In this document: positions 2,758 through 45,428 of the stretch, piece by piece | Layout of the letters: each line of letters starts with the position of its first letter | How positions within the stretch are numbered: position 1 is the first letter of the stretch | Source: a bacterium | GTDB lineage: Bacteria > Electryoneota > RPQS01 | Length of the DNA stretch: 64,000 nt | Assembly: GCA_013360195.1 (NCBI GenBank) | Contig: JABWCQ010000006.1 | Span: 1 to 64,000, forward strand | Reading direction: 5' to 3' | Made by a program: the position numbers and the translations under genes | Notes under the pieces: model-generated | Seen by the model: only the letters and a program-made list of their open reading frames with translations | Told to the model about the DNA's origin: nothing | The model's database searches: none

Positions 2758-3324
2758 CTAGTCCTCGGGCACTTCGCTCAAGAACTTCTCCAATTCCGCT
2801 TCGTCGCTGACCATGTTTTGCATCAGGCGCTCGAGCTGCTCCTCGAGCTCCGTAAGCTTGCGCTTCGCCTGATACTTGTCCCAGTTGTTCTCCGCCTTGG
2901 AGAGCACGGTCTTGGCAATCTTGACCGCCTTTTCCTTGGCTTCAATCAACTTCGGACCACGCTTAATCCGCGCGCGAAGAAGGCCGATCGAGCGACCCGT
3001 TTCGCCCTTGGTCGCGTTACGGTTGTCGGGCTGGCTCGACTTGCGGTCAATCTCAGCTTCGACAGCGCGTTGGAACTTGTCGAGATCGACGTACTCCAAC
3101 CCATGGACAGTGAAAAGAGCCGATGTCTTCTTGTAAGCAGCGCGACCCTTATCGAGGTCGGTGATTCCATGAATTTCACAGGCTTTGGCCAAAGGGACTT
3201 TGGTTGGGTTTTCCACTTTTGTTTCGTTAAGTGCTTGTTTGTGACCGAATTCCGCGGCCACACCGGACCTACCAAGTCCACGCGGTGATAAGCTCCGCCT
3301 GCCCAATTGATTCAAGTTGACCAC
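2758..3324 (-). CDS. Hypothetical coiled-coil protein, 188 aa
   Basis: Not recognised. Residues ~45-90 contain a compact segment (ACEIHGITDLDKGRAAYKK) that could form a small helical DNA-binding or adaptor fold. Residues ~110-185 are almost wholly Lys/Glu-rich helix with heptad-like leucines (KLTELEEQLERLM), probably a coiled coil. There is no signal peptide. The start is an uncertain GTG at 3324 with a weak ribosome site; an internal start is possible. It lies downstream of the 730-aa gene, separated by that gene's terminator. Function unknown. Confidence 0.55.
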   Translation of the reverse strand: MVNLNQLGRRSLSPRGLGRSGVAAEFGHKQALNETKVENPTKVPLAKACEIHGITDLDKGRAAYKKTSALFTVHGLEYVDLDKFQRAVEAEIDRKSSQPDNRNATKGETGRSIGLLRARIKRGPKLIEAKEKAVKIAKTVLSKAENNWDKYQAKRKLTELEEQLERLMQNMVSDEAELEKFLSEVPED

Positions 3325-3504: not shown

Positions 3505-5697
3505 CTATTTAGATGCGAGTCTTGCCTTGAGGAATACGGCCTCCCGTTTGTTTATCCTCGAAGATTCGAGTGGAGAGGAGAGGTCTTGAAAAACGAGGCC
3601 GTACGTATGCAAATAACGCGATAGGGTTGATCGATTCGATTCCGATGGCAAAACACTCTCGTCGAAAGGCTTATCCTTCGTCCTGAATCCGCAAAGCCAC
3701 GCGACATGGTCGATGTTGCGAAGTTCAATACTGAGGCCTAGAACAACAAGTCGGCCAAGCATATGTCGCTCGTGGCCATTAATCTCCTTGTTAGGGATGA
3801 CTAACTTGAGATCCCGGATAACTGACGCAAGAGTCTTTTTGTCAGGAATGACCTTCTTGCGGTCAATAAAATCCTGAGATGTCGGATTGGCGGGCACAAG
3901 GAGATCGGCGATAAGCGAATTGGCGACATTCCGGTTGTTTATTACAATTTCATCCCATAAGTTCTGCCACTTAAGAATGAACGGCACATGCTCTGCAAAG
4001 AACTTCAGTTCAGACTCTTGCCTATTTCTCGATAGTATTGCCTCATACGCCTCCATCTTCAAAATCTCAGGAACATCAACTGCAGGTTTGACCAATGTTT
4101 CCGCAACAACAGGTTCTTCGGTCTCCTCCCTCAGGAGTTTAGTTTCGATTGACTGAGGCTTGATTGACTCCGTCGTACGAATGAACCCATATCTTTCATA
4201 GTGCTCTTGGGCGAATTCGTTACGTGCCACAGCCTTCAGCTTCTTAGCAGAATCATGATACAATTGGTGCAATCTACTTCGTCCCAAGTAGTCTAGCATC
4301 TTCTCCCGCTGATTGCCACAATGTGTAGTCAGCAATCTTACGGCATCGTGCGTTGAACCAAGAAGAAGTTCCTTCCCAGTATTGTCAAGAAGGCAATACG
4401 CAATGCCAATCGGCGAGTCCCAATCTTGCCATGTCGTTTCACAGCGTACAACCAGCGACTGCAATTGCTCCATATTGAAATCGGGTAATGCTGCCAAACA
4501 ACCTCTTAGCACGTTCGCTGCTTTCACGAATTCAGTTCGCACAAGATCATGACGATCCGATTGAAGGTTGGCAACATAAAAAGGCAAAAACAAATGCACC
4601 AAAGCGATTTGATGACTTACGCTGTCGCGAAACGGTAATTCGCTCACGAACTTGCGAAGCTCTGGCAATAATGCATTAGGCTCCCAACCCGTCATGTTGA
4701 GTGGGAATAGAAACCTCGATTCACTTCTGTTTGTTGCGTTTGCTTCGGCCATTGATTTGAGTGCAACTACATCTCGCGCCAAAGTCGCGTTAAAAGCAGC
4801 GTCGAAATACTTGTCCGATGACACCCGCAAATTACCGCTCTGCTTGTCAAGAATCAGATTGTCGAGTGTTTGGAACGCCTGACCTACTCTTACGTATTCC
4901 GTGACCATTTCAGAATGTACAGTCTCAATTCTTGAAACGTCTATCCAATCATACGTTGATGGAATTTCATGTGATTCGACATTTGGGAAGTCCTCTATCG
5001 CCTTAACCAACGTTGCGATCGCTGACGGAAGTTCGTTCGCAATACGATTATCTATCTCGCTCTCGATCCTCGCGCTCTCCTTCAGCACTTTTACAATACC
5101 CTCCCTTTTTGACTCGTCAATTACTGCTATAGGGATTGCTACCATCTTTTGAAACAATTCAATGCACTCGAACACCTGTGACTCATCTTGAGCGGCAGCA
5201 GCAACTACTAACTTCTTATCAAGGTACTTCAACACATTCTCATATTGATTCAAGACTGAGTCAAAATGAATTCGAAAGTCATCTACGACCATTGCATATG
5301 AAAAGTGCTCGCCGCTCGATTTAATCGCTACAAAAAGCCAGTATGCATAGTAACGAATGAAGTTTGTCAAAGGTATACGTCCGAGTCGCAGGTCATCAAG
5401 CACACTAGCGCGAGTGTCTTTGAAATACGTGCTTTCAAACAGCTTGATTTGTTGCCGACACGTTCCCAGGTCGTCATCAAGAATGTCCGAAGTTTGTAAC
5501 GCTTGCCGGTATCGTTTCCCAACTATACCTGAAACATGATGCCACTCACCTGAAGGACAGTAAAAGAGCATTGGCTTCTTCAGCTCTGGATCATCTACAA
5601 TCGGAAACTCGGTCAGGAAATCAATGTCGATGATTTGGTCAGCTGATAAGCCTTTATCCGCAGTCAGGAGTTGGCGCAGTGCTTCTGAAATACGCAT
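3505..5697 (-). CDS. Large hypothetical protein, 730 aa, divergent from the Ubl operon
   Basis: Not recognised. The product is cytoplasmic (no signal peptide, no obvious membrane helix) and mostly helical, with long charged stretches. There is no Walker motif, nuclease motif or Cys cluster that I can see. It is a monocistronic unit with its own sigma70-like promoter (5734-5762) and terminator (3451-3480). Codon use and AT content match neighbouring island genes. It stands back to back with the ubiquitin-like conjugation operon across a 143-bp gap, so it may be a target, adaptor or sensor for that system. That link is inference from position alone. Confidence 0.75.
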   Translation of the reverse strand: MRISEALRQLLTADKGLSADQIIDIDFLTEFPIVDDPELKKPMLFYCPSGEWHHVSGIVGKRYRQALQTSDILDDDLGTCRQQIKLFESTYFKDTRASVLDDLRLGRIPLTNFIRYYAYWLFVAIKSSGEHFSYAMVVDDFRIHFDSVLNQYENVLKYLDKKLVVAAAAQDESQVFECIELFQKMVAIPIAVIDESKREGIVKVLKESARIESEIDNRIANELPSAIATLVKAIEDFPNVESHEIPSTYDWIDVSRIETVHSEMVTEYVRVGQAFQTLDNLILDKQSGNLRVSSDKYFDAAFNATLARDVVALKSMAEANATNRSESRFLFPLNMTGWEPNALLPELRKFVSELPFRDSVSHQIALVHLFLPFYVANLQSDRHDLVRTEFVKAANVLRGCLAALPDFNMEQLQSLVVRCETTWQDWDSPIGIAYCLLDNTGKELLLGSTHDAVRLLTTHCGNQREKMLDYLGRSRLHQLYHDSAKKLKAVARNEFAQEHYERYGFIRTTESIKPQSIETKLLREETEEPVVAETLVKPAVDVPEILKMEAYEAILSRNRQESELKFFAEHVPFILKWQNLWDEIVINNRNVANSLIADLLVPANPTSQDFIDRKKVIPDKKTLASVIRDLKLVIPNKEINGHERHMLGRLVVLGLSIELRNIDHVAWLCGFRTKDKPFDESVLPSESNRSTLSRYLHTYGLVFQDLSSPLESSRINKREAVFLKARLASK

Positions 5698-5762: not shown

Positions 5763-5840
5763 GAGATTCTCTGGCATAAGATTCTGTTGGTATCAACAAC
5801 GGGTATTGTGCCCGATCCAGTTCAAATCAAGGAGAATCTC

Positions 5841-6050
5841 ATGCGCGTGAAAGTATTGTGCTTAGGTCGTTCGGCCAAGGAAATCAATGTCAGTGAAGGT
5901 ACGACCGTCGAACAAGCCATCGCGGAAGCCGGGTTCCCGAAAGATTCAAGTTACACCCGGCACCTGAACGGCAGCCCGTGCTTCGATACGGACATCGTGG
6001 TGGACGGTGCCGTTCTGACGCTGGTCCCACAGGTCAAAGGGGGCATCTAG
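5841..6050 (+). CDS. Ubiquitin-like / ThiS-MoaD-type beta-grasp protein, 69 aa
   Basis: A small beta-grasp modifier. I chose ATG 5841 over the upstream in-frame ATG 5787 because AAGGAG (5829-5834) lies seven bases before it and the resulting start (MRVKVLCLG) is the first beta strand of a MoaD/ThiS/ubiquitin fold. The sequence follows the family: strand, 'VSEGTTVEQAIAEAGF' helix region, an 'LNG' turn, and the last strand VLTLVPQ. It ends Lys-Gly-Gly-Ile: the diglycine is followed by one residue, so it probably needs trimming by the JAB peptidase encoded downstream before activation by the E1. It is the first gene of an operon with E2-like, JAB and E1-like genes. That neighbourhood argues for protein conjugation rather than sulfur carriage, though sulfur transfer is not excluded. 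Confidence 0.85.
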   Translation: MRVKVLCLGRSAKEINVSEGTTVEQAIAEAGFPKDSSYTRHLNGSPCFDTDIVVDGAVLTLVPQVKGGI

Positions 6051-6093
6051 GAGGGTGCTTCAGACTACCTGTCCTACGTAGTCTCAGGCATAC

Positions 6094-6128
6094 GAGAGGG
6101 CTGTGATCCAGGTGGTCATGGCCCTCTC
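6094..6128 (+). promoter_or_regulatory. Intercistronic hairpin between ubl and E2
   Basis: GAGAGGGC (6094-6101) pairs with GCCCTCTC (6121-6128), an 8-bp stem with a 19-base loop followed by TTTCC. The weak T tract suggests a partial terminator or mRNA stabiliser that would give more modifier than enzyme. The E2 ribosome site (GGAGG, 6137) lies just after it. Confidence 0.45.
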
Positions 6129-6148
6129 TTTCCTCCGGAGGAACGCTT

Positions 6149-7249
6149 ATGATTGAACAACAGATTCGAACACTGTGTGACTTCTACGCCCAGAAGTGGC
6201 ACACCCCGATTACGCTGATAGTGAAAGAAGCCGATATAACGGTTTGGCATGAAGTCGGGATTGCTGTCTACGTGAACGCAGACAAGGATACGCATTTCTG
6301 CAGGGATATGTTCGGCGATCCGCTTGTGATGGAGTCCGTGCTGGTTGGCAAGGTGTCACCTACGTGGTTAGTTCTGTACGGTGCTCCACTTTTGGATGTC
6401 ACTTCGAACATCCTCGACGCACGTCTACCACGAATGTGCCGTGCATTTCGAAACGGTCAACGGCAAGCATTGATCGAAACAACGGTGTCAGTTGCTGCCG
6501 AACGGAAGCAAGAGCTTGCACGATCATTACGCGATGACAAATATGAACTCGAACGACTGTGTATGCAGGTGATGACATTGTCTCGCAAGATCGAAGGCGA
6601 CAACGAGATTCTGAAGCTGTTCAGCAGAGCACCAGAGTTGATCAAAGCCAAAGCAACACGGACGTTCGTTGAGATGATGAAACTGGTGCCGAGTTATTAC
6701 GAGTCTATCAAGGTCGAAGATTCTTCGGTCATCGCGACGACGTATCCAGTTGTGTTGGAACATGACGGTGGGAGATATGATTTCGAACCATATGTCGTAG
6801 AAGTGAAACTTGACACCGGCAAAGTGTTGATCAGCGGTGGTACTGAAATGAACGGTTACATTCATCCACACGTTACGGATGATCCGAATAACATCTGTTG
6901 GGGAAACATAGGCCACCTTGTGCCACGCCTTGCAGGTGAACTTGATCTTCATGGATTACTTCAACTGGTTCACAACTTCCTGCATAGCTACAACAGCAGC
7001 GATCCTTTTCAGAAAATCGAGAAGTGGGACCCGAATTGGGTGGATGAATCCGACGACGACGAACCCTATTGCAGCTGGTGTGACGACTACGGGCATGACA
7101 TCAGTGACTGTGAGTCATGTTGGTGGTGTGAGCATTGCCAGCAATATGATGACCATGACGAGGACGATTGTCCAAACCGCCCAAAAGAAGGCGAAGAAGA
7201 GGAGGAAGCCAATGCAGAACTTGCAGAGGACGCCGCGACAGCCGGTTGA
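6149..7249 (+). CDS. E2-like ubiquitin-conjugating protein with C-terminal zinc knuckles
   Basis: A 366-aa protein. Residues ~190-290 match the E2 (UBC/RWD) pattern: strands ending in a His-Pro (IHPHV, His239), then 'NNICWG' with the candidate catalytic Cys250, and a C-terminal helix (GLLQLVHNFLHSY). Residues ~100-175 form a long helical segment. Residues 300-345 are acidic and Cys-rich: Cys308-x2-Cys311-x4-His316-x4-Cys321 is an exact CCHC zinc knuckle, and Cys327-x2-Cys330-x5-His336-x4-Cys341 is a near copy with an extra Cys324. The tail is Glu-rich. The start ATG 6149 follows GGAGG. Its 3' end overlaps the JAB gene by 38 bases. In bacterial Ubl operons the E2 accepts the modifier from the E1; here the knuckles may do the work of an E3 or bind substrate or nucleic acid (inference). 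Confidence 0.85.
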   Translation: MIEQQIRTLCDFYAQKWHTPITLIVKEADITVWHEVGIAVYVNADKDTHFCRDMFGDPLVMESVLVGKVSPTWLVLYGAPLLDVTSNILDARLPRMCRAFRNGQRQALIETTVSVAAERKQELARSLRDDKYELERLCMQVMTLSRKIEGDNEILKLFSRAPELIKAKATRTFVEMMKLVPSYYESIKVEDSSVIATTYPVVLEHDGGRYDFEPYVVEVKLDTGKVLISGGTEMNGYIHPHVTDDPNNICWGNIGHLVPRLAGELDLHGLLQLVHNFLHSYNSSDPFQKIEKWDPNWVDESDDDEPYCSWCDDYGHDISDCESCWWCEHCQQYDDHDEDDCPNRPKEGEEEEEANAELAEDAATAG

Positions 7250-7928
7250 TGCTGGAATCAAAGTGCAGGTCGATGCCAATGCTCTGCAGAAGCTCTGGCT
7301 ATGGACGGATTTTGCCAAGGGAGAGGTCAGCTGCCTTGGGATTGTCGATGAAGTCGCCGATGCAAACACAGGTCGCACAACGGCATTGATCGTCACCGAC
7401 TTTCACCTTGTCAAGCAGGAGTGTACGTCAGATGAAACTGACATGGATATCGCGGATGTCGCCCGGCTCATCACGGAACTTGAAGCGAAGGGAATCAACT
7501 CGTGCAAGCTCCGTTGCTGGGCACACTCGCATGGCAGCATGTCAGTGTTCTGGTCGGGGCAGGATGAGACGTGCATTGCAGGACTTGCCAACGGGGAATG
7601 GATGCTATCGTTGGTCGTGAACAAGCGGAGGGATTCGATCATGCGACTGGACCAATACCACCCCGCGCACCTGTACCTTGCTGATGTTCACTGGGATGTC
7701 GTCTATCCACTTGTAGACGGTCTGGCCGAGACCTGTCTGTCCGAGTTCAAAGCCAAGGTCAAGGAGTCCCAGTATCGAAGTGTTCTGAAGAACTCACGAG
7801 AGAAGTCGGTCCTCGGTGACTTGAAGTCTGCCAACGAGAGAGGAACTCTCACGGATGAAGACCTGATGGAAGAGATGGACTGGCTTGGATTGCACAGGGA
7901 TGATCTTGATGAACTTGAACCATTCTAG
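7212..7928 (+). CDS. JAB/JAMM-family metalloprotease (Ubl deconjugase)
   Basis: A 238-aa protein with a complete JAMM zinc site: Glu38 (GEVSC), then His105-x-His107-x7-Ser115-x2-Asp118 (WAHSHGSMSVFWSGQD), exactly the ExnHxHx7SxxD signature of JAB1/MPN+ isopeptidases. I chose ATG 7212 because GAGGAGG lies seven bases upstream; the frame stays open further 5' only because it overlaps the E2 gene out of frame. The C-terminal ~90 residues are a helical extension. The predicted jobs are removing the residue after the Ubl diglycine and cleaving Ubl from targets. It overlaps the E2 gene by 38 bases and is followed after eight bases by the E1 gene, so the genes are translationally linked. Confidence 0.92.
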   Translation: MQNLQRTPRQPVDAGIKVQVDANALQKLWLWTDFAKGEVSCLGIVDEVADANTGRTTALIVTDFHLVKQECTSDETDMDIADVARLITELEAKGINSCKLRCWAHSHGSMSVFWSGQDETCIAGLANGEWMLSLVVNKRRDSIMRLDQYHPAHLYLADVHWDVVYPLVDGLAETCLSEFKAKVKESQYRSVLKNSREKSVLGDLKSANERGTLTDEDLMEEMDWLGLHRDDLDELEPF

Positions 7929-7936
7929 GAGACAAC

Positions 7937-8596
7937 ATGAACGACATGCGATTTCTACGACAACAAGATGTTGTCGATGCCGAGAAGTTAGCGAACTTGC
8001 AAGTTGCACTGATCGGTCTCGGCAGCATTGGGAGCGTCTCCGGTTTGTATCTCGCCAAGATGGGAGTGGTCAGTTTGACCACTTTCGATGCCGATGTTGT
8101 GGATATTCACAATGTCAGCAATCAGGCCTATGGGATGTCTGATGTTGGATTGTTGAAGGCTGATGCTTTCTCTATTCTCGTTGAGAATCAGACCGGAGTG
8201 CTGCCGAACACCATTGGTTTGCAATACGATGGACGGATGCTGTCTGGAATCGTAATCTCGGCTGTTGATTCAATGAAGTCACGCGAAGTGATTTGGAAGT
8301 CAGTTCGTGATCAATCGAGTGTGCGCCTTTATCTCGACGCGCGTATGGGTTTGGAGACGCTGGTTGTCTATGCCGTTCGGCCAACGGTTCGCGAGGACAG
8401 AATCGCCTACTCACAAACACTTTGTAACGATTCCGATGCTCTTCAAGAACCATGCACGGAACGGACGATCTGTTATACGCCTTTGCTGGCTGGGAGTGTA
8501 CTCTGCTCGTTGGTGAAGCGGTTTGTGTGCGATGAGATGATACCTGCGAGGATCGTGCTTGATCTTGCGACGATGACACTACTGGCAGCACAGTAG
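7937..8596 (+). CDS. ThiF/E1-like Ubl-activating enzyme
   Basis: A 219-aa adenylation-domain protein of the ThiF/MoeB/E1 superfamily. Visible are the nucleotide-binding GLGSIG loop (27-32), the acidic strand end FDAD (50-53) followed by Asn59, Asn62 and Gln63 (the 'D..N.NRQ' region), Lys74 and SAVD (Asp111). Cys173 in 'EPCTER' is the best candidate thioester cysteine; Cys179 is an alternative. It is shorter than canonical E1 and ThiF proteins and has no separate catalytic-cysteine or ubiquitin-fold domain. The start ATG 7937 follows AGGAGA. It would adenylate the Ubl C-terminus and pass it to the E2-like protein. It is the last gene of the operon, with a terminator after the stop. Confidence 0.9.
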   Translation: MNDMRFLRQQDVVDAEKLANLQVALIGLGSIGSVSGLYLAKMGVVSLTTFDADVVDIHNVSNQAYGMSDVGLLKADAFSILVENQTGVLPNTIGLQYDGRMLSGIVISAVDSMKSREVIWKSVRDQSSVRLYLDARMGLETLVVYAVRPTVREDRIAYSQTLCNDSDALQEPCTERTICYTPLLAGSVLCSLVKRFVCDEMIPARIVLDLATMTLLAAQ

Positions 8597-8600
8597 CCTA

Positions 8601-8626
8601 AGATAGGGGGTAACCCTATCTTTTTA
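8601..8626 (+). terminator. Terminator of the Ubl operon
   Basis: AGATAGGG-GGTAA-CCCTATCT followed by TTTTTAG, directly after the E1 stop codon. Confidence 0.85.
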
Positions 8627-8900
8627 GCTTGGTGTGGACAAGATCATCCAATGATGCCTCCTCTAATCAAAAGTAGTCCTTTTTTGTCCAATTAGGTAAT
8701 AGAGTCACATTCGCTGTCATAGGCGCTAGTAATACAAGATTTTAACCAGGCTGGGGGTGTAGAAGTTCTTGCGCGGTTGTCATGCAATGAAAACTGTCAG
8801 GGGGGGGGGCAAGAGCTCTTGACAAAGAGAAAACAGTTCCCGTAATTGTAGGCAAGTTCTCGGGATACTGGCTGGACAACTAAGCTCGGAGGCCGGACTC
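8627..8900. other. Leader region of the split protease gene, with a G10 tract
   Basis: No gene is seen. A run of ten G lies at 8800-8809, 91 bases before the start codon of the secreted protease. Such a tract in a promoter or leader could alter expression by slippage. The last ~35 bases (AACTAAG...GGAGGCC) resemble the sequence before 27707. Confidence 0.4.
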
Positions 8901-9485
8901 ATGACGCGAATTCCATCTGCATTCAATCTTCTGAAGCGGGTGGGGTTCGCGATTTTGTTGTTGTTTGCGGTTCTGACAATTCTACTCTCCTCTTTCGCCT
9001 ATAACTCAACGGCACTGGCAAGAAGCTGCCGTGAACGAAGCACTTGTGTGATTACTCAAGTAATGGGTGGAGGGACATACGAGAGCAATGGATATTGTTG
9101 GACCATGAAAGCAAGCGGTGTCTGTGAAAACGATTGTTCTTTTAAAGGTGGGGTTTGCCTTAGTCACGGTTGCTCCAATGACAATCAAAGTTGTGGAGCC
9201 ACGTGGGATGAACCCGGAAACGGATGTACGCAACAAGACTCAAACTTCTTTTATCCTCATTACCATAGAGAGTACTGCCGAGGCGAATGGTATTCTTGTC
9301 GATGTGACAGAGCTGCTCGGTACTGTATTACACACTGCAATTGCCAGACCTCAGTTGTATGCACGCCCTACATAGTTCCCGATAATTGCCGACGTTACGA
9401 ATGCATCAATTTCCGGTTTCTGCCCGTGATTCCATGTTCGGATTGCAAGAATTCTATATCCTTTTGCGGAACACCATTGATCTAG
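8901..9485 (+). pseudogene. 5' part of a secreted metzincin-type protease, split by an IS
   Basis: A 194-aa fragment. It has a signal peptide (Lys-Arg, then a hydrophobic core VGFAILLLFAVLTILL, residues ~12-40) and a Cys-rich extracellular segment with about 25 cysteines. The last two codons and the stop are IS-derived. If the IS (9480-10734) and one copy of the flanking CACCATTG are removed, the frame continues without a break ('CGTPL' into 'PDEDYLPSYGD') into the 3' fragment, giving a ~622-aa protein whose C-terminus carries HEFGHMSGINH. The leader peptide (MTRIPSAFNLLKRVGFA) is nearly repeated at 27707. The native gene was therefore a secreted zinc protease. A short Cys-rich product might still be made. 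Confidence 0.85.
9472..9479 (+). repeat. Target-site duplication of the IS, left copy
   Basis: CACCATTG, repeated exactly at 10735-10742 on the other side of the IS. Eight bases is longer than the 3-5 usual for IS3-family elements, so part of the match may be chance. Confidence 0.6.
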
Positions 9486-9551
9486 CCCCCGAAAACTGTA
9501 CCACTTTGAAAGTTAGAGAAGAGTGGTATATTTAGGGTGAAGGAGGCGGTT

Positions 9552-9830
9552 ATGGCTAGAGCTAAGTATCGTCCGGAGCAGATCATACCGATGCTTCGGG
9601 AAGCGGAGGTTGAGATTGGGAAGGGTATGACGGTTCGGGAAGTTTGCCGGAAGCTGGGGGTTCAGGAGAACACGTACTATCATTGGCGGCGGGAGTACGG
9701 GGGGCTGAAGATGGATCAAGCGAAGCGGCTGAAGGAGTTGGAAGTTGAGAACAGCCGGTTGAAGCGTGTGATCGCGGACTTGACGTTGGACAAGCAGATT
9801 TTGAGTGAGGCGGTGCGGGGAAAATCTTAA
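9552..9830 (+). CDS. IS3-family transposase OrfA
   Basis: A 92-aa protein with an HTH_Tnp_1-type helix-turn-helix (residues ~10-45; MTVREVCRKLGVQENTYYHW) and a C-terminal leucine-rich coiled coil (LKELEVENSRLKRVI) as in IS3-family OrfA. I chose ATG 9552 because AAGGAGG lies ahead of it. The end is GGGGAAAATC then TAA; a -1 slip on the A run enters the orfB frame, which is open from there, so an OrfAB fusion transposase is likely. It should bind the IS ends. Confidence 0.92.
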   Translation: MARAKYRPEQIIPMLREAEVEIGKGMTVREVCRKLGVQENTYYHWRREYGGLKMDQAKRLKELEVENSRLKRVIADLTLDKQILSEAVRGKS

Positions 9831-9889
9831 GCCCAGCGGATCGTCGTAGAACGGTCCTGGCGGTTCGCTGTTCGCTGGGCGAAGCGAGA

Positions 9890-10702
9890 GTGTCGGAGCG
9901 TCGAGTGTGTCAGGTGTTGGATCAGTGCCGCAGCAGTCAACGTTATGTTCCGGCGCGGCGCTCTGACGAGAACGAGTTGACATCGTTGGTGATTGCGCTG
10001 GCGTGTCAATACGGCACGTACGGCTATCGCATCATCACAGGGTTGATCCGCTTGACCGGTTGGCGTGTTAATCACAAACGGATCGAGCGCATTTGGCGCC
10101 AGGCGGGGCTGAAAGTCCCGCGCAAGCAGCCAAAGCGCAGACGCTTGTGGCTGAATGACGGCTCGTGCATCCGCTTGCGGCCGGAGTATCCAAACCATGT
10201 GTGGAGTTACGACTTCGTGACGTGGCAGACGGCGAACGGCAGAGCGTTTAGAGTGTTGGCTGTGCTGGATGAGTACACGCGGGAGTGTTTGGCGTTACTC
10301 GTGAGTCGCAAGATCACAGCGGACGATGTGCTGGCGCAGTTGGAAGAGCTGTTTTTGTTCCGGGGCACACCGGATCACATCCGCAGTGACAACGGGCCCG
10401 AGTTTACGGCGCAGATGGTACGGGGCTGGCTGGCGAGGTTGGAAGTGGAGACGCTGTTCATCACACCGGGCAGTCCGTGGGAGAACGGCTATGTGGAGAG
10501 CTTCAACTGCCGACTGAAGGACTTCTTGAAAGGCGAGATCTTCGACACGCTCAAGCAGGCGCAGGTCCTGATCGAACAGTGGCGGGTGCATTACAACACG
10601 GTTAGACCGCACAGCTCCCTGGGCTACAAGCCGCCTGCCCCGGAAACGAAAAAACAATTACTTCCGTCTCCGCTACGCTACGACGGAAGTAACCGAGTGT
10701 AA
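9890..10702 (+). CDS. IS3-family transposase OrfB (DDE integrase domain)
   Basis: A 270-aa protein, GTG start at 9890, although the frame is open back to ~9821 and would be read as the second half of OrfAB after -1 frameshifting. It holds an HTH_21-like segment (residues ~25-80) and the rve integrase core with the DDE triad: Asp in 'WSYDFV' (~104), Asp in 'RSDNGPEF' (~165) and Glu in 'ENGYVESF' (~201). No key residue is missing, so the IS may be active. Confidence 0.92.
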   Translation: MSERRVCQVLDQCRSSQRYVPARRSDENELTSLVIALACQYGTYGYRIITGLIRLTGWRVNHKRIERIWRQAGLKVPRKQPKRRRLWLNDGSCIRLRPEYPNHVWSYDFVTWQTANGRAFRVLAVLDEYTRECLALLVSRKITADDVLAQLEELFLFRGTPDHIRSDNGPEFTAQMVRGWLARLEVETLFITPGSPWENGYVESFNCRLKDFLKGEIFDTLKQAQVLIEQWRVHYNTVRPHSSLGYKPPAPETKKQLLPSPLRYDGSNRV

Positions 10703-12033: not shown

Positions 12034-12882
12034 ATGAAAACTAAATATATTTTCTTCATTCTTGCATTTGTGATAACAATTCCTTCGGCCTACTGCCAAA
12101 ACACGCGCTTTGACATTTCTGCTCAAGTTATACCGCGCGAGCTATGTCCAACTTGTCCAAGCTCAACTATTTTGGCTGGATCACTTGTGGAAATTGCTGT
12201 AACCGTCAAACCTGATCCTCTTTCTGAATCATGGAATTATCTGCCAGCAACCACTTTCAAGCCTGATTGGCTGGACATCAGTTTCTATGAATCTGCGAAT
12301 TCAAGTCAAAAGGCAGTTTCTATAAACCATGCCTATTTTGTCTCGGCATATACTCGCACCATAGATCAAATGGTGGCAGATGGCAAAGATAATCCACCGA
12401 AACCAGATCCATATAGAGTTTACAAATTTGCGTTTACCGTGCCTGAATTAGTCGATAGCATTCTTTGCGTACGAGTTACATTGCATAATCCCCCCTACGG
12501 GCCAATTGTTTTGAATGATATTTTTGACGAGCATTTTAAGTGTCTGCATGTTTTGCAACCACGGAATAGAGCAGATTCTACATATGTTTTCGAAACACAT
12601 GTAGACCATTATTGGAATTCCGGCGATCTAGATAGATGCGTGACATTAGCGGATTCGCTTATTCAACATGGCTGGGTAGCTGGAGTCTTGTCTGCCAGAC
12701 TTTCTGCCACTCACTTGAATCGTTTGGATGAGTTATTGCGAATCATGGATGCCGCCTATGAAACCTATGGTACAATCTATAACTACCCTAGAAGGATGAC
12801 TCGTATGGACGCTACAGAGTATCAAAGCATGCGAAACGACCTTTTGCGCAAGATTGAAGAGCAGCAGAAATCTGATCATTAA
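12034..12882 (+). CDS. Secreted protein, companion of the metzincin, 282 aa
   Basis: Function not recognised. It has a clear signal peptide (MKTKYIFFILAFVITIPSAYC, cut near residue 21-22). The N-terminal ~150 residues look like a beta-sandwich with a 'LCPTCPSS' Cys pair. The C-terminal ~100 residues look like one or two TPR-type helical hairpins. A paralogue of the same layout lies at 13309-14151; both directly follow a metzincin-type gene, so the pair protease plus companion was duplicated in tandem. It may be an inhibitor, chaperone or partner of the protease (inference). It starts one base after the protease stop. Confidence 0.8.
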   Translation: MKTKYIFFILAFVITIPSAYCQNTRFDISAQVIPRELCPTCPSSTILAGSLVEIAVTVKPDPLSESWNYLPATTFKPDWLDISFYESANSSQKAVSINHAYFVSAYTRTIDQMVADGKDNPPKPDPYRVYKFAFTVPELVDSILCVRVTLHNPPYGPIVLNDIFDEHFKCLHVLQPRNRADSTYVFETHVDHYWNSGDLDRCVTLADSLIQHGWVAGVLSARLSATHLNRLDELLRIMDAAYETYGTIYNYPRRMTRMDATEYQSMRNDLLRKIEEQQKSDH

Positions 12883-17204: not shown

Positions 17205-17248
17205 ATGGCATAAGAACTTGTCCAAGGACAAACACCGAAAGGAATTGT

Positions 17249-17733: not shown

Positions 17734-18882
17734 ATGATTGTTTTTATTGTGCTTCCGAGGTTCTTCCTCCATGGTATGCCTCAAGACCATACGCAGGTTA
17801 TTGCTAGGAACCGGCTTGTCCTTGAAGCATCAGATGAAGCGATCCGGCACGGAGTTTGAGTCGGTGACGCGATCAGACTGGCACGAAGACGATGTCCGGG
17901 TCTCGAAGTTCGGGAGTTTCGACCCGAAGACTATTCAGATCGATTTGAGCAAGTCTGGTCCTCGGTCGCCGGATTCACGCCTATGGTTCAGACCACGGAT
18001 CTTCATAAAGGCTACTTGGACATTACGAAAGACTACAAGCGGTTTGGCAATGCTGATTCGATGGTTCGAAGTCTAAATGAAGAGCTGACGAAGACAACGG
18101 GCCTGAATATCAAATGGGGCGGTGGTGCGGACAAGTGGATGGCTTGGCTTGCTCGCGGGCACAATCAATTTATCACTCCTGCGATGGAATCTCTTGTCCT
18201 GTCTAAGCTATCTATCGAAGCCATGGCACTGCCGGAACGCGTTACGGATCGTCTCCACCATTTCGACATTCATTCTGTCGCGCAAGTCATGGAATTACCA
18301 TCAAGGTTTCTAGAATCGCATCTCGGATTCGACCGAAACTTTGTGCTGAAGTGCCTAACAAGGCACAAGGAACCCGTTCGTCCCAACTTTCCGCCCCGCA
18401 AGATTGAAGCTTGCGTGGATATCACAGAATCTGATGAACAAGCCTATCAACGGGCTATAACGGAAGTTGCAAACGATATTGCTGTGCAACTGATGAAATC
18501 CAACATGCAGACTTCATGCTTGCGAATAATCTACAAAACAAAGCTGCTGAAACACGAAGTTGACCATAAGCTTTCGCAAGGGGTATTTACTGAAGGACGG
18601 CTTACGAAGATTCTGATTGATTTGCTGCCAGATGAAATGCAGCATAGCCTAAAGAGCATTGGCGTTGAAGCGCGAGGTTTACTTCCCCGTCAAGTAACAC
18701 AAGACTTGCTTTGGGAAAAGTCCCTTACCAACAACGCTGCCGAACAACTTGAACGCGCACAGAACAAACTCCGCTCTCGATATGGAAGTGAATTATTGGT
18801 TTCCGGAAGCACGGCGTATGCACGTCAGCAGCCGCGCTTTGCACAGTTAGTCTATCAGTCACGCGGTCTAACCCTTCCTTAA
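17734..18882 (+). pseudogene. imuB: ImuB-like Y-family polymerase homologue with an in-frame TGA
   Basis: Read from ATG 17734 the frame gives MIVFIVLPRFFLHG, typical of ImuB/Y-family N-termini, then 'LEASDEAIRHGV', TGA (17857-17859, codon 42), then 'VGDAIRLARRRCPG', 'FRPEDY' and 'GFTPMVQTTDLHKGYLD', and continues to 18882. Relatives normally have Arg in 'GVRVG', so CGA to TGA is the simplest cause. ImuB is a catalytically defective polymerase that bridges DnaE2 to the sliding clamp. An internal start (for example ATG 17983) would lack the N-terminus. The downstream genes overlap or nearly overlap, as in intact cassettes. Suppression of the stop is possible but unproven. Confidence 0.8.
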
Positions 18883-18883
18883 C

Positions 18884-19105
18884 ATGGAGCCCGTTAATGT
18901 CACATGCACTTCAGGTGCACCCAATTCTCTGCTGTGGCGTGGACAGTCGCAGCTAATTGTCTGCGTTTTGGATCATTGGTGGGAAGCCGGACGCTGGTGG
19001 GAAACAGAAGCCGCAAGGGAGTTCTTTCTTGTATTGACGAATCAACGGCGAATGTTATTGTGCCGCAATCCAAACTCTGGTGATTGGCTTGCCAAATCTG
19101 CATGA
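18884..19105 (+). CDS. DUF6504-like small protein of the mutasome cassette, 73 aa
   Basis: A short protein with the pattern seen between imuB and dnaE2 in other bacteria: 'MEPVNVTC', 'FxWRGQ'-type strand (LLWRGQSQLIVCVLDHW), paired Trp (WEAGRWWETEAAREFF). It starts one base after the imuB stop and ends in an ATGA overlap with dnaE2, so all three genes are translationally coupled. Its role is unknown; it is presumed to act with ImuB. Confidence 0.75.
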   Translation: MEPVNVTCTSGAPNSLLWRGQSQLIVCVLDHWWEAGRWWETEAAREFFLVLTNQRRMLLCRNPNSGDWLAKSA

Positions 19106-22100
19106 GACCACCTGTTCCACTTATGGTTCGCAGCGAGTACAGTTTTCTGAACGGCGCGTCGCGATTAGAAGAGCTTGTCAAGGTCGCGGCACAGCTCGGG
19201 TATGACACACTTGCGCTGACCGATGTAGATCACTTGTGTGGAGTCCCGGAGTTTCTAGGCCTATGCAAACGACATGGAGTTCGACCAATACTCGGGGTGG
19301 AACTTACACTTAGTACCGGCAGAATAATCGCCCTTGCCAAATCGTGCAAGGGTTTTGCTTCTCTCTGTAGGCTACTTACGGAATCGCATACAGAGAATGA
19401 GCGACGTCAGCCCATGCTTCGTGAAGAACAACTTCTTGATCATGCAGAAGACCTGATTCTGATTGCAGGTGGCAATGATGCACCCTTTGCCTCATGGGTG
19501 TTTCAGCGGCGCATGGATAAGGCGGAAGCCTGGCTTCGTCGTATGCAAAAAAGACAGGGCGCAGATTTCTTTGTACGTGTGGAGCGAACATTCCAGCCGA
19601 TGCAGCAGGAATTCAACGCAAGGCTGGTTAGTATTTGTTCAGACTTGCAGATACCCATCGTAGCCTGCAATCCTGTTCACTTTGCCCATCCTGATCAATA
19701 TCGCATCTTTGATCTGCTGTCCTGCATTCGCAATTTAATCAAACTGGACGACCCACATCCGGAGCGACCTATCAACGGATTTGGCTATTTACACAGCCCA
19801 GCTGCATTCACTAAGCTCTTTGAAGATATGCCGCAGGCCTTGGAAATGACACATAACGTCGCAGATCGTTGCGAAGACTATTCACTGAACGACGAGATGT
19901 ATCGTCCCAGGTTTGGCTGTGAATCTGACGATTCTTCAATCCGTGAATTTTACAAGTTGACAGAAGCTGGTGCCCGAAGAAAGTACGGGGGAATAGGAAG
20001 CGAACTCGACAAGCGCATCAAATACGAACTTAGGGTCATCACGGACTTGGGGTTCGCAGGGTATTTTCTGATTGTCCATGACCTCTTGAACTTCGCGAGG
20101 TCAAAGGGCATCAGATACGCCGGGCGAGGAAGCTCGGCAGACTCTGTCGTCGCATATTGTCTCGACATCACAAAAGTGGATGCCTTCAAGCGCAATCTAC
20201 GTTTCGAGCGGTTTATCAACCCTGAACGAAAAGAATCGCTGCCGGACATTGATATTGATTTCGACCGTCGGTATCGCGAGGAAATCGTTCAATACGTAAT
20301 TGGCAAGTACGGGCAAGACCACGTCGCTGGTGTAGCATCCTTCAATCGATACAGGGCACGGGGTGCAATCCGGGATGTTGCAAAGGCGCTTGGATTTGAA
20401 ACTGAAGACATAGACAAGTTAGCAAGGTATTCCCATTGGGCACTTTCTGCTAAACGAATTGCGTCAACGCTCGACAGTAGACCCGAAATTCGATCTTTGC
20501 AGGTAGACAAGAAGAAGTTCGAGCTTCTATTCGAACTCTGCGCCGGTTTGGATGATATGCCCAGACACATCTCGGCGCATCCCTGCGGCGTAATGATCAC
20601 AGGCGCGTCGGTTCAGGGAATAACACCACTACTGCGAGCCGCAAACGGTATGTTGATATCACATTATGACAAGGACGGTGTGGAAGACTTGGGGCTGGTT
20701 AAATTCGACTTACTTTCACTTCCTACGCTGGGCGTAGTAGAAGACACGGCAGTAATGGTTCGAGAGCACTCCCCGAAGTTTGAGTACGACAAGATTCCGT
20801 TGGACGACGAAAAAACCTTCGAGCTACTTCGTTCTGGTGAAACGACAGGAGGATTTCAAAATGAAAGTCCTGCACAACAATCTCTCGCACCAAGGCTTCA
20901 GGCCCGAACAATCGAAGATGTCATTGCAGCTGTCGCACTGATTCGCCCTGGACCACTGAAGGGCGAAATGGTTGAACCGTTTGTCAGACGGCGAAATGGG
21001 ACGGAAGCGGTCGTATCAATCCATCCGGTCATTGACAAGATTCTTGAACATACTTACGGAGTTGTACTATACCAAGAGCAGGTTATTAGCATTGCAGTAG
21101 AATTAGCTGGATTTACACCCGGACAGGCAGACGTATTACGCAGGACTATTTCACACAACCGATCGTATGAGAAGATGGCCGAGCTAGGCGAACAGTTCGT
21201 AAAGCAGGCCATCGAGCGTGGCGTTGAACCAGAGCTTGCCGAAAAGGTTTTTACGTGGATTCAGGGGTACGCGGGATATGGATTCTGTGAAGCACACGCT
21301 GCTTCCTTTGGAGACACCAGCTACAAAACAGCCTATCTACTTCAACATCATCCAGAAGAATTCTATGCTTCGCTACTGAATCATCAACCAATGGGATTTT
21401 TCCCTGCCGCCACACTGATAAATGAAGCCAGAAGACGTGGAATTGCTGTTTTGGGACCGGACTGTAACAGTAGTCGTGCTACGACTTCAGTCCAGAATGA
21501 AGCAATTCGAATCGGATTGCTGCAGGTTTCAGGGATGAATGAGGCGGAAGCGAACAAGATTATTGGTGCAGCTCCGTATGCATCGTGGGGCGACTTTGTC
21601 CGTCGCGTTCGACTGAGTCGTGACCTACTGGAGAATCTTGTTTTGGCAGGTGCGTTTGACTCGCTACACAAGAATCGCAAAGAACTTCTATTCAGTTTAG
21701 GATCAATCTTGCCTCCGGTTGAAACGGACAAGCTTGCATTAGCACTGGATCTTGAACCCGTGATTTCTCGAAGAACAGATTTCGATGCGTTCACACGGTC
21801 AATGCAGGAACATCGTGTTTTAGGGTTTTCTCCGGATCGACATTTTATCTCCTTCTGGCGGGACACTTTGACCGCAAAGGGAATTCAGACGTGCCGTGAG
21901 GTTAAAACTAATCAAGACTCGAAAGCCGTGCTTTCCGCAGCAGGAGTTGTGATCCGACCGCACACACCACCTACCAAGTCCGGCAAGCGAGTTATCTTCT
22001 TCTCCCTTGAAGATGAATCTGGTCTATTGAACGTCACCGTCTTCCCTGACGTACAGGAAAAGTTTGGGCATTTGATTCCAGGACAGTCCATGCTTGTAAT

Positions 22101-22191
22101 TACAGGCCGCAAGGACAAACGAGGAAGCGACGGGCTTACGGCATTTCATTTGGCGAAGTTACCGGAGACAACTTTCAAACACAAAAAATAA
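19102..22191 (+). CDS. dnaE2: Error-prone DNA polymerase III alpha subunit DnaE2 (ImuC)
   Basis: A 1029-aa C-family polymerase for translesion synthesis. I chose ATG 19102 because it overlaps the previous stop in ATGA; an upstream TTG is less likely. It has a PHP domain (residues ~5-200; RSEYSFLNGAS, LTDVDHLCGV), a polymerase palm with the catalytic Asp pair in 'PDIDIDFD' (~residue 381) and 'KFDLL', fingers, helix-hairpin-helix 'FTPGQADVLRR', and a C-terminal OB fold (VIFFSLEDESGLLNVTVFPD). The length is that of DnaE2. No residue loss was noticed. It is unusual as cargo of a mobile island; it would raise mutagenesis after damage if ImuB were functional. Confidence 0.93.
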   Translation: MRPPVPLMVRSEYSFLNGASRLEELVKVAAQLGYDTLALTDVDHLCGVPEFLGLCKRHGVRPILGVELTLSTGRIIALAKSCKGFASLCRLLTESHTENERRQPMLREEQLLDHAEDLILIAGGNDAPFASWVFQRRMDKAEAWLRRMQKRQGADFFVRVERTFQPMQQEFNARLVSICSDLQIPIVACNPVHFAHPDQYRIFDLLSCIRNLIKLDDPHPERPINGFGYLHSPAAFTKLFEDMPQALEMTHNVADRCEDYSLNDEMYRPRFGCESDDSSIREFYKLTEAGARRKYGGIGSELDKRIKYELRVITDLGFAGYFLIVHDLLNFARSKGIRYAGRGSSADSVVAYCLDITKVDAFKRNLRFERFINPERKESLPDIDIDFDRRYREEIVQYVIGKYGQDHVAGVASFNRYRARGAIRDVAKALGFETEDIDKLARYSHWALSAKRIASTLDSRPEIRSLQVDKKKFELLFELCAGLDDMPRHISAHPCGVMITGASVQGITPLLRAANGMLISHYDKDGVEDLGLVKFDLLSLPTLGVVEDTAVMVREHSPKFEYDKIPLDDEKTFELLRSGETTGGFQNESPAQQSLAPRLQARTIEDVIAAVALIRPGPLKGEMVEPFVRRRNGTEAVVSIHPVIDKILEHTYGVVLYQEQVISIAVELAGFTPGQADVLRRTISHNRSYEKMAELGEQFVKQAIERGVEPELAEKVFTWIQGYAGYGFCEAHAASFGDTSYKTAYLLQHHPEEFYASLLNHQPMGFFPAATLINEARRRGIAVLGPDCNSSRATTSVQNEAIRIGLLQVSGMNEAEANKIIGAAPYASWGDFVRRVRLSRDLLENLVLAGAFDSLHKNRKELLFSLGSILPPVETDKLALALDLEPVISRRTDFDAFTRSMQEHRVLGFSPDRHFISFWRDTLTAKGIQTCREVKTNQDSKAVLSAAGVVIRPHTPPTKSGKRVIFFSLEDESGLLNVTVFPDVQEKFGHLIPGQSMLVITGRKDKRGSDGLTAFHLAKLPETTFKHKK

Positions 22192-26659: not shown

Positions 26660-27706
26660 GTGATTAACCCTTCAAAACCCCCTATATCGACAAGAAATCA
26701 AAATTTTTTGCGATCGTGATCTAATTGGTTTTCGCGGTTATTCGGCGGAATGCCAAAAAGTGAATCGACGATTTTATTTGCACGGATAAAATGGCACCGC
26801 CGATTTTTCGACACGCACCGTTCCTTAAGTTTTCATTGGCGAACATGAAAGCGATCAAACACTTCGATTTGTAAAGTACCGCGACCGGTCAAACTAGATT
26901 CGATGTTCCTGCCAGTCTTCCCCGCATTGTCCTGCCCAAAGACCTTGGTTGATGCCCTGATCTGCGCGTGGGGCTTGCCCGACTTGTCTGTGAGAAGCAG
27001 TCAAGATGTCAGTCAGTCGTCTTTCTTCTCCTCTCCAGTTAGTCTCTCATTCTACAGAGCTGATTGTAAATTTGATGTTCAATTTCGGCCGATCGTCCGG
27101 CAGCGTACGGCGGTCGGCGGCCAACGCCCCACAGGCCGAATCCCGGGGGTTGATTTTTATGGGTTTACCGGGACTGACTGGTCAGATCCGGGATTGCCCG
27201 GCCGTAAGTCACGGTTTAACAAGGGAATCCGGCACAAGCCTGGGCCCGAATTTCAGCCAGCATCTTGCGTTCGCCAGCCAACGTCCCCGATGCAGACCGC
27301 CGCTCCAGCGATTATTTTATCCAGATTCCAACAACAACCTTTGAAGTATCGTTTACGAATAGATCTGTCTATCTTCACAGAGAATTACGGGCAGGCAAGA
27401 GCAAGCTATTGTTTGTGCGATTTCCTTAGCGATTCGTGCAACAAAGTCACATATTTAACAGATTCTGTGGCAATCTTGTGTCGCACCCTTGAAACACTTA
27501 CATTGATTGCTGACTGTGGTGCGTCGTGCAATTGCGTGAGTACTTTGGAGTCACACTGCAGAAAGCGCGCAAGATTTTTCACAGCTTCTGGCGGCGAATC
27601 TAACATCGAGTTAAATATGCACAACTTGACTTCTTTCCGGCCGTTTGCTATCTTCCGTTCAGGTCTTGGGGATCTGACGGAGAAACTAACCTTGGAGACC
27701 ACAACT
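26660..27706. other. Gene-free kilobase ahead of the FG-GAP array
   Basis: Frames here are Arg/Ser-rich and lack ribosome sites. Its first ~250 bases are AT-rich, probably the promoter region for the minus-strand unit, and the middle (27060-27260) is GC-rich. No RNA or repeat was identified. Confidence 0.4.
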
Positions 27707-29312
27707 ATGACGCGAATTCTATCTGCATTCAAATTCTTGAAGCGGGTGGGGTTCGCGGTTTTGTTTAGGAGGAAACTCGATATGATAGGATTATTGTTCG
27801 GAGTGCTGGTCTGGGCAAGTCTCGCCCAAGCCCAAGAAGTCATTTGGGTGCGGAACGGGGATTGGAACGAAGCACATTTCGGGGGGCTGATCTTGCCCTT
27901 AGGCGACCAGAATGATGATGGTTTTGCCGACTGGGCTGTGTTCTCAGGTGGATCAAACGATCAGCCATCAGGACTTGATGACCGACTGAATTTCTTTTAT
28001 GGCGGCAACCCGCCATCACAAACGCCGTATTTGACTTTTCGTCCACGAGAAGGGGCTGAAGCGCCATATATGTACAATTTGACTACAATCGGAGATTTCA
28101 ATGGTGATGGATATATAGATTGGGTCATTGGTTATTTCATACCTGGATTGGACAGTGCAACCTTTGAGCTTTATGGGGGGGGGGGCGAGTGCTGATACCA
28201 TTCCGGAAGCGATACTAAGAATGCCTTTTGAGGTAACACTTGATCGGCTCGGTCGTGTGGGGGATCACAATGGTGACGACTGTGCAGATGTTTATTACTA
28301 CAGTCGCGAGACGGACCTGACGTTTTTTTACTTTGGTAATGGTGACTGGAACATGAGTGTTGATCTTGTCAACCAAGGCGAGCCGCTTGGCTCAGGGAAC
28401 AGTAGACCTAGCTTTGACGTCTTTGGTGATTTTAACGGCGACGGATTTGATGATTATTTGACACGACGAGTGGTAGGGCAAAATGATTCCACATATATCT
28501 ACTTGGGAAGCGCAATACCCGACACGATTCCCGACATGATATGGTTTGGGAATTTTGCTTTTCCCGCGACGCTTTCGGTGGACATAAATAGTGACGGTTC
28601 TGCAGATTTAGCTGTGGGTCAATATCAAACGATTGATGTACATTTGGGTAGCCAAACACCCTCTTTTATTCCTACTTTTGTTCTTGATTTCCCCGGATGT
28701 TCTGAAGGAACTGTAAGTTCTCTAATAAGCGCCGGTGACTACAACAATGATGGCTACGATGACCTTGTGGCGACTTCAGATGCCTGTGCCAATGGATTTG
28801 GCGCGTTACAGCTATACTTGGGCGGCCCTTGGTTAAATCCGTACCCCGTGCTCCGGATTGAAGGAATGAGTTCGCCGCCTTTTAACAATGTTCCGATTTG
28901 GCGTGCGATTGGGCTTGGAGATGTAAACGGTGATGGCATAGACGATCTTGCAATTGGATGCCAAAGAGATATCAATGATGGCCGACGTGGACGGGTAGTG
29001 ATTCTTTCCGGGGATACGACGCTGCATATTGACGCAAGCGAACATCCGCCGCTTGCGCAGGATTTTTCCATGTCCATCTACCCCAATCCGGTTAATGGCG
29101 TTGCGACAATCAGAATCGAACAGCCGCTCGGTTCAAAACCTTCAGAGCTTGCGATCTTCAACCTCCTTGGGCAAACGGTAAACAGGTTCACGCTCGCTCC
29201 GGGAACTCAAAGTCTTGCTTATGACGCGAGCGCACTCGCGTCAGGAATTTATATCATTCAAGCGCAATCGCTTTCAAATATTGTTTCGCAGAAATTGGTT
29301 GTCTTAAAGTAA
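27707..29312 (+). pseudogene. FG-GAP repeat surface protein, copy 1, out of frame at a G11 tract
   Basis: The best start is ATG 27782 after AGGAGG (MIGLLFGVLVWASLAQAQ signal peptide); an in-frame ATG 27707 adds a leader that copies the one at 8901. Calcium-binding FG-GAP/VCBS-type repeats follow (GDQNDDGFADWAV, GDFNGDGFDDY, GDVNGDGIDDLAIG), then a Por sorting domain (SIYPNPVNG ... LGQTV ... KLVVLK). Translation from 27782 stops at 28195 just after an 11-G run (28175-28185). With ten G the frame is open to 29312 and gives 509 aa. It is therefore an 'off' or broken copy of the intact gene at 31701. The product would be a type IX-secreted beta-propeller surface protein. Confidence 0.85.
28175..28185 (+). 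repeat. G11 homopolymer, candidate phase-variation switch
   Basis: Eleven G inside copy 1 at the codons for Tyr-Gly-Gly-Gly-Ala. Ten would restore the frame. Confidence 0.75.
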
Positions 29313-44965: not shown

Positions 44966-45081
44966 GAGTTTTGAGACCGTTGGAAGGCGTGCATACGGGA
45001 AACCGTATCGGGGGTTCGAATCCCCCTCTCTCCGCAGATGACTTAGCCCTTGACATTAAGATGTCAGGGGCTTTGTCTTTT
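44966..45081 (+). repeat. Right attachment repeat: 3' fragment of tRNA-Ser
   Basis: Matches 30-145, identical over 44977-45058. Again only the tRNA-Ser 3' half from the anticodon loop on, with its terminator (45045-45081). It marks the border between the island and the chromosomal genes to the right. Confidence 0.9.
45045..45081 (+). terminator. Terminator after the right tRNA-Ser fragment
   Basis: AGCCC-T-TGACAT / ATGTCA-G-GGGCT followed by TTTGTCTTTT. Confidence 0.75.
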
Positions 45082-45428
45082 GGATGTTCACACGGCCTGA
45101 GATAACCCATTCGAGCAGGTTGATTCTGAACTGCGATATCTCTCTTGGGATATCTCGTGTTCTCTTGTCCAGAACAGGGCGGTTACTTTGGGCTGCAACC
45201 GGACGAGATCCGGCTGACTTTGTCTGAGGGGATTTGGTCGCTCACGGGCAATCTGATTCCCTGGCGCTCGGACTGCCGATACGCCCAAAGAAGCTTGACA
45301 GAGAATCGTAATATTGTTATTTTCAAAGGTATTAGCGCTCGCCCAGCTGCACAGCCGGGCGAGTAGCGAGCAACTTTGAACCTTCGGGTTCAACTCAGTC
45401 CAAACTACCCTCCTCAAGAGACACCCTC
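45082..45428. other. Leader region of the peptide transporter gene
   Basis: No gene. Two hairpins lie close to the start: GCTCGCCC...GGGCGAGT (~45336-45363) and TTGAACC-TTC-GGGTTCAA (~45375-45391). They may be mRNA structure; no known riboswitch was recognised. Confidence 0.4.

Follow-up and report, generated by a model that had tools for sequence, protein, structure and literature searches.

A predicted ubiquitin-like conjugation operon on a tRNA-associated island of an Electryoneota bacterium, with relatives mainly in large tailed phages

The stretch of DNA analysed here (the window; 64 000 nucleotides of contig JABWCQ010000006.1, from an uncultured bacterium of the phylum Electryoneota) carries four genes that are predicted to encode a self-contained ubiquitin-like conjugation cascade, which would form the core module of elements integrating at tRNA or tmRNA genes and has relatives mainly in large tailed phages. 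From sequence comparison and structural modelling, we put the probability of this reading at about three in four. All four genes lie on the forward strand and encode, in order, a ubiquitin-like modifier (Ubl; 5841–6050, 69 residues), an E2-like conjugating enzyme (6149–7249, 366 residues), a JAB/JAMM metalloprotease (7212–7928, 238 residues) and a minimal E1/ThiF protein with a single adenylation domain (7937–8596, 219 residues). The four-gene set is real and its coordinates hold. A first-pass annotation of the window had described four coupled genes; all four are present and the ATG of the JAB gene lies inside the E2 gene, with an overlap of 38 nt, but a 98 nt spacer holding a strong covarying hairpin parts the Ubl gene from the E2 gene.

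The Ubl is a β-grasp protein whose open reading frame reads to the end ...VPQVKGGI, in agreement with the KGGI terminus noted at first pass. Its match to Pfam was ThiS-like at 7e-4, which is under the cut-off, while profile comparison matched SAMP2 (7e-8) and PF1061 (1e-7), with SAMP2 the closest. The sequence VKGG is invariant in the 14 copies from islands of the same phylum, and of 60 distinct viral Ubl ends, 39 have Gly-Gly within their last six residues; the protein is predicted to have the exposed or processable C-terminal Gly-Gly of a modifier in a conjugation cascade. Identity among the islands is 64–91% for the Ubl and 41–84% for the E2, and in most comparisons the Ubl varies least among the four proteins, as expected because a modifier has to fit several partners.

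The E2-like protein was not matched by any family model in Pfam, NCBIfam, PADLOC or PHROGs, and a structural test was therefore needed. The core domain (residues 128–299, encoded at 6530–7045 on the forward strand) was modelled using 47 homologous sequences, giving a predicted local distance difference test score (pLDDT) of 93.2 and a predicted template-modelling (TM) score of 0.75, whereas an earlier model with six sequences had a pLDDT of just 58. A Foldseek search of the PDB placed complexes of UbcH7 at the top (probabilities of 0.99 and 0.96, E values of 0.02–0.03 and TM scores of 0.39–0.49), and the top eight matches also include other E2s and an RWD domain. The 366-residue protein thus passed the fold check proposed at first pass: the model, with matches at an E value of 0.02, points to a UBC/RWD fold with an active-site cysteine after an H-P-N/H loop. 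The active-site motif, HPHVTDDPNNICWGN, has the form HPH...CWG, in which HPH-x(n)-C-x-G occupies the place of HPN...C in ubiquitin-conjugating (UBC) enzymes; Cys250, assigned earlier to an ICWG motif, lies in the context NICWGN. Both Cys250 and His241 are conserved in islands and phages alike, and a motif of the HPH..C.G type is present in 63 of the 70 viral E2 hits above 40 bits. The C-terminal tail (7064–7177, forward strand) bears the zinc knuckle that had been proposed, C-x2-C-x4-H-x4-C, together with a second Cys/His cluster. Within this tail Cys308, Cys321, Cys324, Cys327, Cys330, Cys341 and His316 are invariant in 13 island copies and Cys311 is retained in 12 of the 13; Cys-rich E2 tails are also found at the phage loci L077, L086 and L088.

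The JAB protein gave weak library hits but has a full catalytic motif: the HxHx7SxxD site claimed for it is present as HSH-x7-S-x2-D at residues 105–118 (His105, His107, Ser115 and Asp118), with Glu38 in addition. These five residues are invariant across islands and phages, and all 160 viral JAB hits above 30 bits (duplicates counted) have HxHx7SxxD. The E1 is indeed a minimal ThiF protein, a single domain that matches Pfam ThiF at 9.8e-13, and its profile finds not only ThiF but also UBA5, ubiquitin E1 and Cap2. Residues Arg8, Asp51, Asn59, Lys74, Asp111, Arg116 and Cys173 (in the sequence EPCT) are invariant across islands and phages. The protein is accordingly predicted to have the ATP-binding motifs of an E1, and the conservation of Cys173 suggests that this residue is catalytic.

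Among 39 genomes of the phylum, searches with tblastn and profiles found the four-gene set in 10, at 15 loci in all, including three copies in the source genome and four in one relative, and the order Ubl–E2–JAB–E1 is constant across the 15 island loci wherever the contig permits. The ratio of nonsynonymous to synonymous change (Ka/Ks) among island copies is 0.04–0.16 where computable, silent sites being saturated in two JAB comparisons, and the operon is under purifying selection. Because of the ThiF match in Pfam, the profile match to SAMP2, the recurrence in one order and the low Ka/Ks, we regard the operon as beyond chance. Outside the phylum, genome searches gave close relatives in only three genomes from two small phyla: one locus (L069) has the order Ubl–E2–JAB–E1 and another (L070) the order E2–JAB–E1–Ubl, and for genome G292 only the JAB match itself was read.

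The view that this gene set is distinct from known operons held up for the three systems compared directly, Bil, type II CBASS (cyclic oligonucleotide-based antiphage signalling system) and PRTRC; we group Bub with the E1/E2/JAB operons of the types described by Iyer (2006). Bil resembles the window operon in having Ubl, E2, JAB and E1 as four genes and in that JAB is presumed to process the Ubl. However, BilA consists of two Ubl domains, BilD of two adenylation domains and a Cys domain, and BilB has a CEHH motif with a downstream His (PMC11354881), whereas the window Ubl is a single 69-residue domain, its E1 is one 219-residue domain in place of inactive and active adenylation domains with a Cys domain, and its E2 has HPH upstream of the cysteine. 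Type 6d E2s likewise have the His downstream (PMC1779556), unlike the HPH of the window E2. Operon types 6a–6e combine E1-like, E2-like, JAB and sometimes Ubl genes in one predicted operon on mobile elements (Iyer 2006; PMC1779556), a likeness that includes type II CBASS with Cap2/Cap3 (6b). In contrast to these types, the E1 of the window type is separate in every copy read, fused to neither E2 nor JAB, the operon lacks a CD-NTase (cGAS/DncV-like nucleotidyltransferase) or metallo-β-lactamase gene, and the E2 is unmatched by the Prok-E2 models of Pfam. Type II CBASS has an E2–E1 fusion and a CD-NTase; here E1 and E2 are separate, the E1–E2 models of PADLOC match the E1 part only, and a CD-NTase was seen by only one operon copy (L026), outside the operon. 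The PRTRC plasmid cassette, which is mobile and has its own JAB-like protein A and a ThiF family member, is similar in these respects, but PRTRC_ThiF scored 33.6 bits where its NCBIfam cut-off is 144.75, and PRTRC_A 12.9 where it is 101.8; B and C gave no hit. Among archaeal systems, SAMP2/Urm1-type modifiers are alike in that the profile of the window Ubl is nearest to SAMP2, and the ubiquitin operon of Caldiarchaeum has separate Ub, E1 and E2 genes with a deubiquitinase in one operon (PMC11354881). The window operon differs in its bacterial and phage carriage, its minimal E1, the absence of a RING gene and the zinc-knuckle tail on its E2.

The membership of the Ubl and E1 in the ThiS and ThiF superfamilies also allows a reading as sulfur transfer or cofactor chemistry, with the Ubl as a ThiS/MoaD-like sulfur carrier, the E1 as its adenylase and JAB as a processing protease; some ThiS–E1–JAB operons are such sulfur-transfer systems (Iyer 2006; PMC1779556). 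Every readable island copy, however, has a conserved E2 with an active-site cysteine, and the source genome has its own, separate ThiS–ThiF locus. Among the neighbouring proteins searched there were no hits for thiamine, molybdenum cofactor or sulfur genes or for an E1–rhodanese linkage, and no rhodanese, cysteine-synthase or siderophore genes were recognized nearby. Homologues beside thiamine or molybdopterin genes would have spoken for sulfur chemistry at first pass; they do not sit beside such genes, and the conjugation reading stands. Because an E2 is present and ThiS–ThiF is separate, we reject the sulfur-carrier reading as highly improbable.

The viral branch of the family was reached only through E1 and JAB profiles, which gave many matches on viral contigs; the E2 as query gave no match in plasmids, phages or viral contigs. 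Profile scoring for all four proteins found 90 viral loci with E2, JAB and E1. After removal of duplicates and with tight clustering required, at least 60 distinct cassettes on viral contigs remain, and 35 of these have the exact order Ubl–E2–JAB–E1; the contigs, which may be fragments, reach 208 kb. Eleven of the 23 viral contigs tested match phrog_2, presumably the terminase large subunit, and among the positive contigs a Pfam terminase domain is co-located in two and just beside the match in a third. Two isolated phages, Fpv3 of Flavobacterium and crAss001 of Bacteroides, encode divergent ThiF/E1 (2.6e-40 and 7e-37, respectively) and JAB proteins (1e-11 and 3e-10). Ahead of these lie a protein with an HSH...C loop and another whose N-terminus is Ubl-like, both assigned by eye. 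The crAss001 genes gp76–gp79 (L091) and the Fpv3 ThiF locus have this same set of proteins in identical order, with a primase and uracil-DNA glycosylase (UDG) near the former and UDG near the latter; they differ from the window operon in their low identity (∼25% between E1s) and are on record merely as ‘thiamine biosynthesis’, ‘metalloprotease’ or hypothetical. At L091 and L253, the crAss-like genes that carry the annotation ‘thiamine biosynthesis’ or ‘E1 enzyme family’ probably form a divergent Ubl cassette. The open-access literature (bioRxiv not included) yielded no account of such a cassette in phages, and the widespread viral four-gene set is apparently undescribed so far. In an E1 tree the island copies group as a single clade (100/100), and the three bacterial lineages lie among the phage rows with moderate support.

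Since the relatives are mostly phage-borne, antiphage defence is just one option for the function of the operon. As the main rival to our reading, antiphage or anti-element defence holds that the cascade tags incoming phage proteins, as in Bil, and so protects the host of the element, with the variable divergent regulator controlling expression. The similar make-up of Bil, which is defensive, the mobile and multi-copy islands, the regulators that differ from copy to copy and the CBASS locus (CD-NTase, patatin and E2) adjoining the L026 copy are in its favor, whereas the Ubl, E2 and JAB proteins are unmatched by any defence model in PADLOC, and a family carried chiefly by large phages, and there often within replication regions, fits poorly, exclusion of one phage by another being possible. 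We consider this alternative doubtful. The earlier description of the operon as a defence or host-takeover module is consequently not retained as to defence as stated, and is nearer the mark in its second half: the relatives, mostly in large tailed phages, often adjoin primase/helicase genes, Sak4 or Erf annealing proteins, HNH nucleases and UDG. Because of these neighbours, a role in which the cascade benefits the virus or element by modifying replication, recombination or host proteins is favored, at about even odds. That large tailed phages, including crAss-like phages, encode full Ubl cascades acting on replication or host proteins, one of which was captured by the islands of this phylum, is a proposition that might equally well prove right or wrong.

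In the proposed mechanism, JAB would trim the tail of the Ubl to expose Gly-Gly, which some copies already have at their end. The minimal E1 would then adenylate the Ubl terminus and take the Ubl as a thioester on Cys173, a step to which the conservation of this residue points, and Cys250 of the E2 would accept the Ubl and hand it on to a target, probably selected, as may be a ligand, by the zinc-knuckle tail. JAB would also remove the tag. A hairpin after the Ubl gene would hold the Ubl in excess over the enzymes, and modification of replication, recombination or host proteins would help the element or virus to establish itself and replicate. The hairpin (6094–6128, forward strand; 15 bp with a U-rich tail) lies in the Ubl–E2 spacer and was found in 14 loci, its stem ranging over 14–17 bp with a U-rich tail in the 14 readable island copies. 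In an alignment of 13 sequences 97.8% of cells are paired (∼44–59% in slid controls), and two-sided changes occur at nine of 14 pairs, compared with 5.2 in shuffles. Covariation supports the structure, which is probably a partial terminator or stabilizer that raises the Ubl over the enzymes. This device suggests a high demand for Ubl and in this respect argues against a cascade devoted to a single partner, that is, a regulatory switch on one element or phage protein instead of many targets. Type II CBASS is described as tagging one enzyme (PMC10097602), and the window operon has no E3 gene while its E2 and Ubl stay together; no fifth gene, however, is a constant companion of the cassette across islands and phages. 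We think such a switch unlikely.

Several points weigh against the conjugation cascade and the role proposed for it. The PDB matches of the E2 model, although led by E2s, include none with an E value below 0.001, and JAB has no significant sequence match in the PDB. Both catalysis at Cys173 of the E1 and the order of transfer are steps that we infer. The link to replication comes from phage neighbourhoods only, the operon in islands following integrase-side genes. The root of the E1 tree is arbitrary, and capture of the operon by islands from phages would be plausible. Bacterial ubiquitin-like conjugation has hitherto been treated mainly as defence; if our reading is true, a full virus-encoded ubiquitin-like pathway would exist in bacteria instead of a host defence, and a phage or element cascade would place this chemistry on the attacker's side. 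Genes of crAss-like and Flavobacterium phages annotated as thiamine biosynthesis proteins would be re-annotated, and a compact cascade with a near-canonical E2 active site would offer minimal enzymes as models for how ubiquitination arose. The cascade is directly testable because cultured carriers exist.

Upstream of the Ubl gene, a promoter-like box, CTGGCATAAGA (5771–5781, forward strand), is conserved in 14 of 14 readable loci, some of which depart from it at one or two positions, and its 10-mer is expected 0.12 times in the window. A second exact copy of TGGCATAAGA is located at 17206–17215, by an unrelated gene. A small leader hairpin (5800–5814, forward strand) ahead of the Ubl gene shows weak covariation over 12 loci. 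The terminator attributed to the operon is present as a hairpin after the E1 gene (8600–8622, forward strand), but it is ordinary (z = −1.9). Comparison with Rfam gave no credible family. On the opposite strand, a divergently transcribed gene (3505–5697) encodes a 730-residue protein whose position is conserved and which shows C-terminal similarity by eye; the gene in this place varies among copies and at L018 and L021 encodes a sigma-54-type AAA regulator (Sigma54_activat, 9e-41 and 2e-20). By the position of these counterparts, the window protein is probably a regulator. Sigma-54 sites were expected because of the regulator in these two copies, and none, strict or medium, was found upstream of the Ubl gene.

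The operon lies on an integrative element, as had been proposed. A 123 bp repeat comprising the 3′ part of a tRNA-Ser-like gene and its flank occurs at 30–151 (a fragment and probable attachment repeat, the contig beginning at base 1 of the window) and at 44966–45088 (the probable right end), both on the forward strand and 97% identical, which suggests an island of ∼45 kb. ARAGORN found no complete tRNA in the window, only 3′ fragments; a tandem arrangement is likely because neither repeat copy is a complete tRNA, and another contig of the same genome (C26) opens with an identical tRNA 3′ end. A tyrosine integrase of 361 residues is encoded at 343–1428 on the reverse strand (Pfam Phage_integrase, 1.4e-22), with homologues adjoining tRNA or tmRNA genes elsewhere. 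In ten other loci the integrase is near a tRNA-Asp, tRNA-Lys, tRNA-Glu, tRNA-Ser or tmRNA gene, and L018 has a 57 bp exact attachment repeat that delimits a 16 kb element; at most of the remaining loci the stretch examined shows no second repeat. With an integrase by a tRNA or tmRNA gene and flanking attachment repeats, these are tRNA-integrating mobile elements. Also on the reverse strand are genes for two element-core proteins: one of 227 residues (1613–2296), with homologues between integrase and operon in L018, L021, L023, L024 and L025, and a helical protein of 188 residues (2758–3324), with homologues in L016, L019, L021, L022 and L024. At L071 (5045–7429) a decayed element retains a tRNA-Ser, a seemingly broken integrase and an intact Ubl gene (KGGGW), with the E2 cut off after ∼45 residues.

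Immediately 3′ of the operon is a probable IS3-type transposase pair (9537–10702), recognized by eye. A leader and start region of secreted proteins is repeated downstream of the operon, at 8855–8964 and 27659–27766 in the window and also in L016 and L018. A CBASS-type locus with genes for a patatin, an SMODS/DncV CD-NTase and an E2-like/UEV protein lies at 12745–15700 of L026, a few kilobases from the operon copy. Within the putative 45 kb island of the window, an ImuB-like gene (IMS domain) is followed by one for a DnaE2-like error-prone polymerase (17983–22191).

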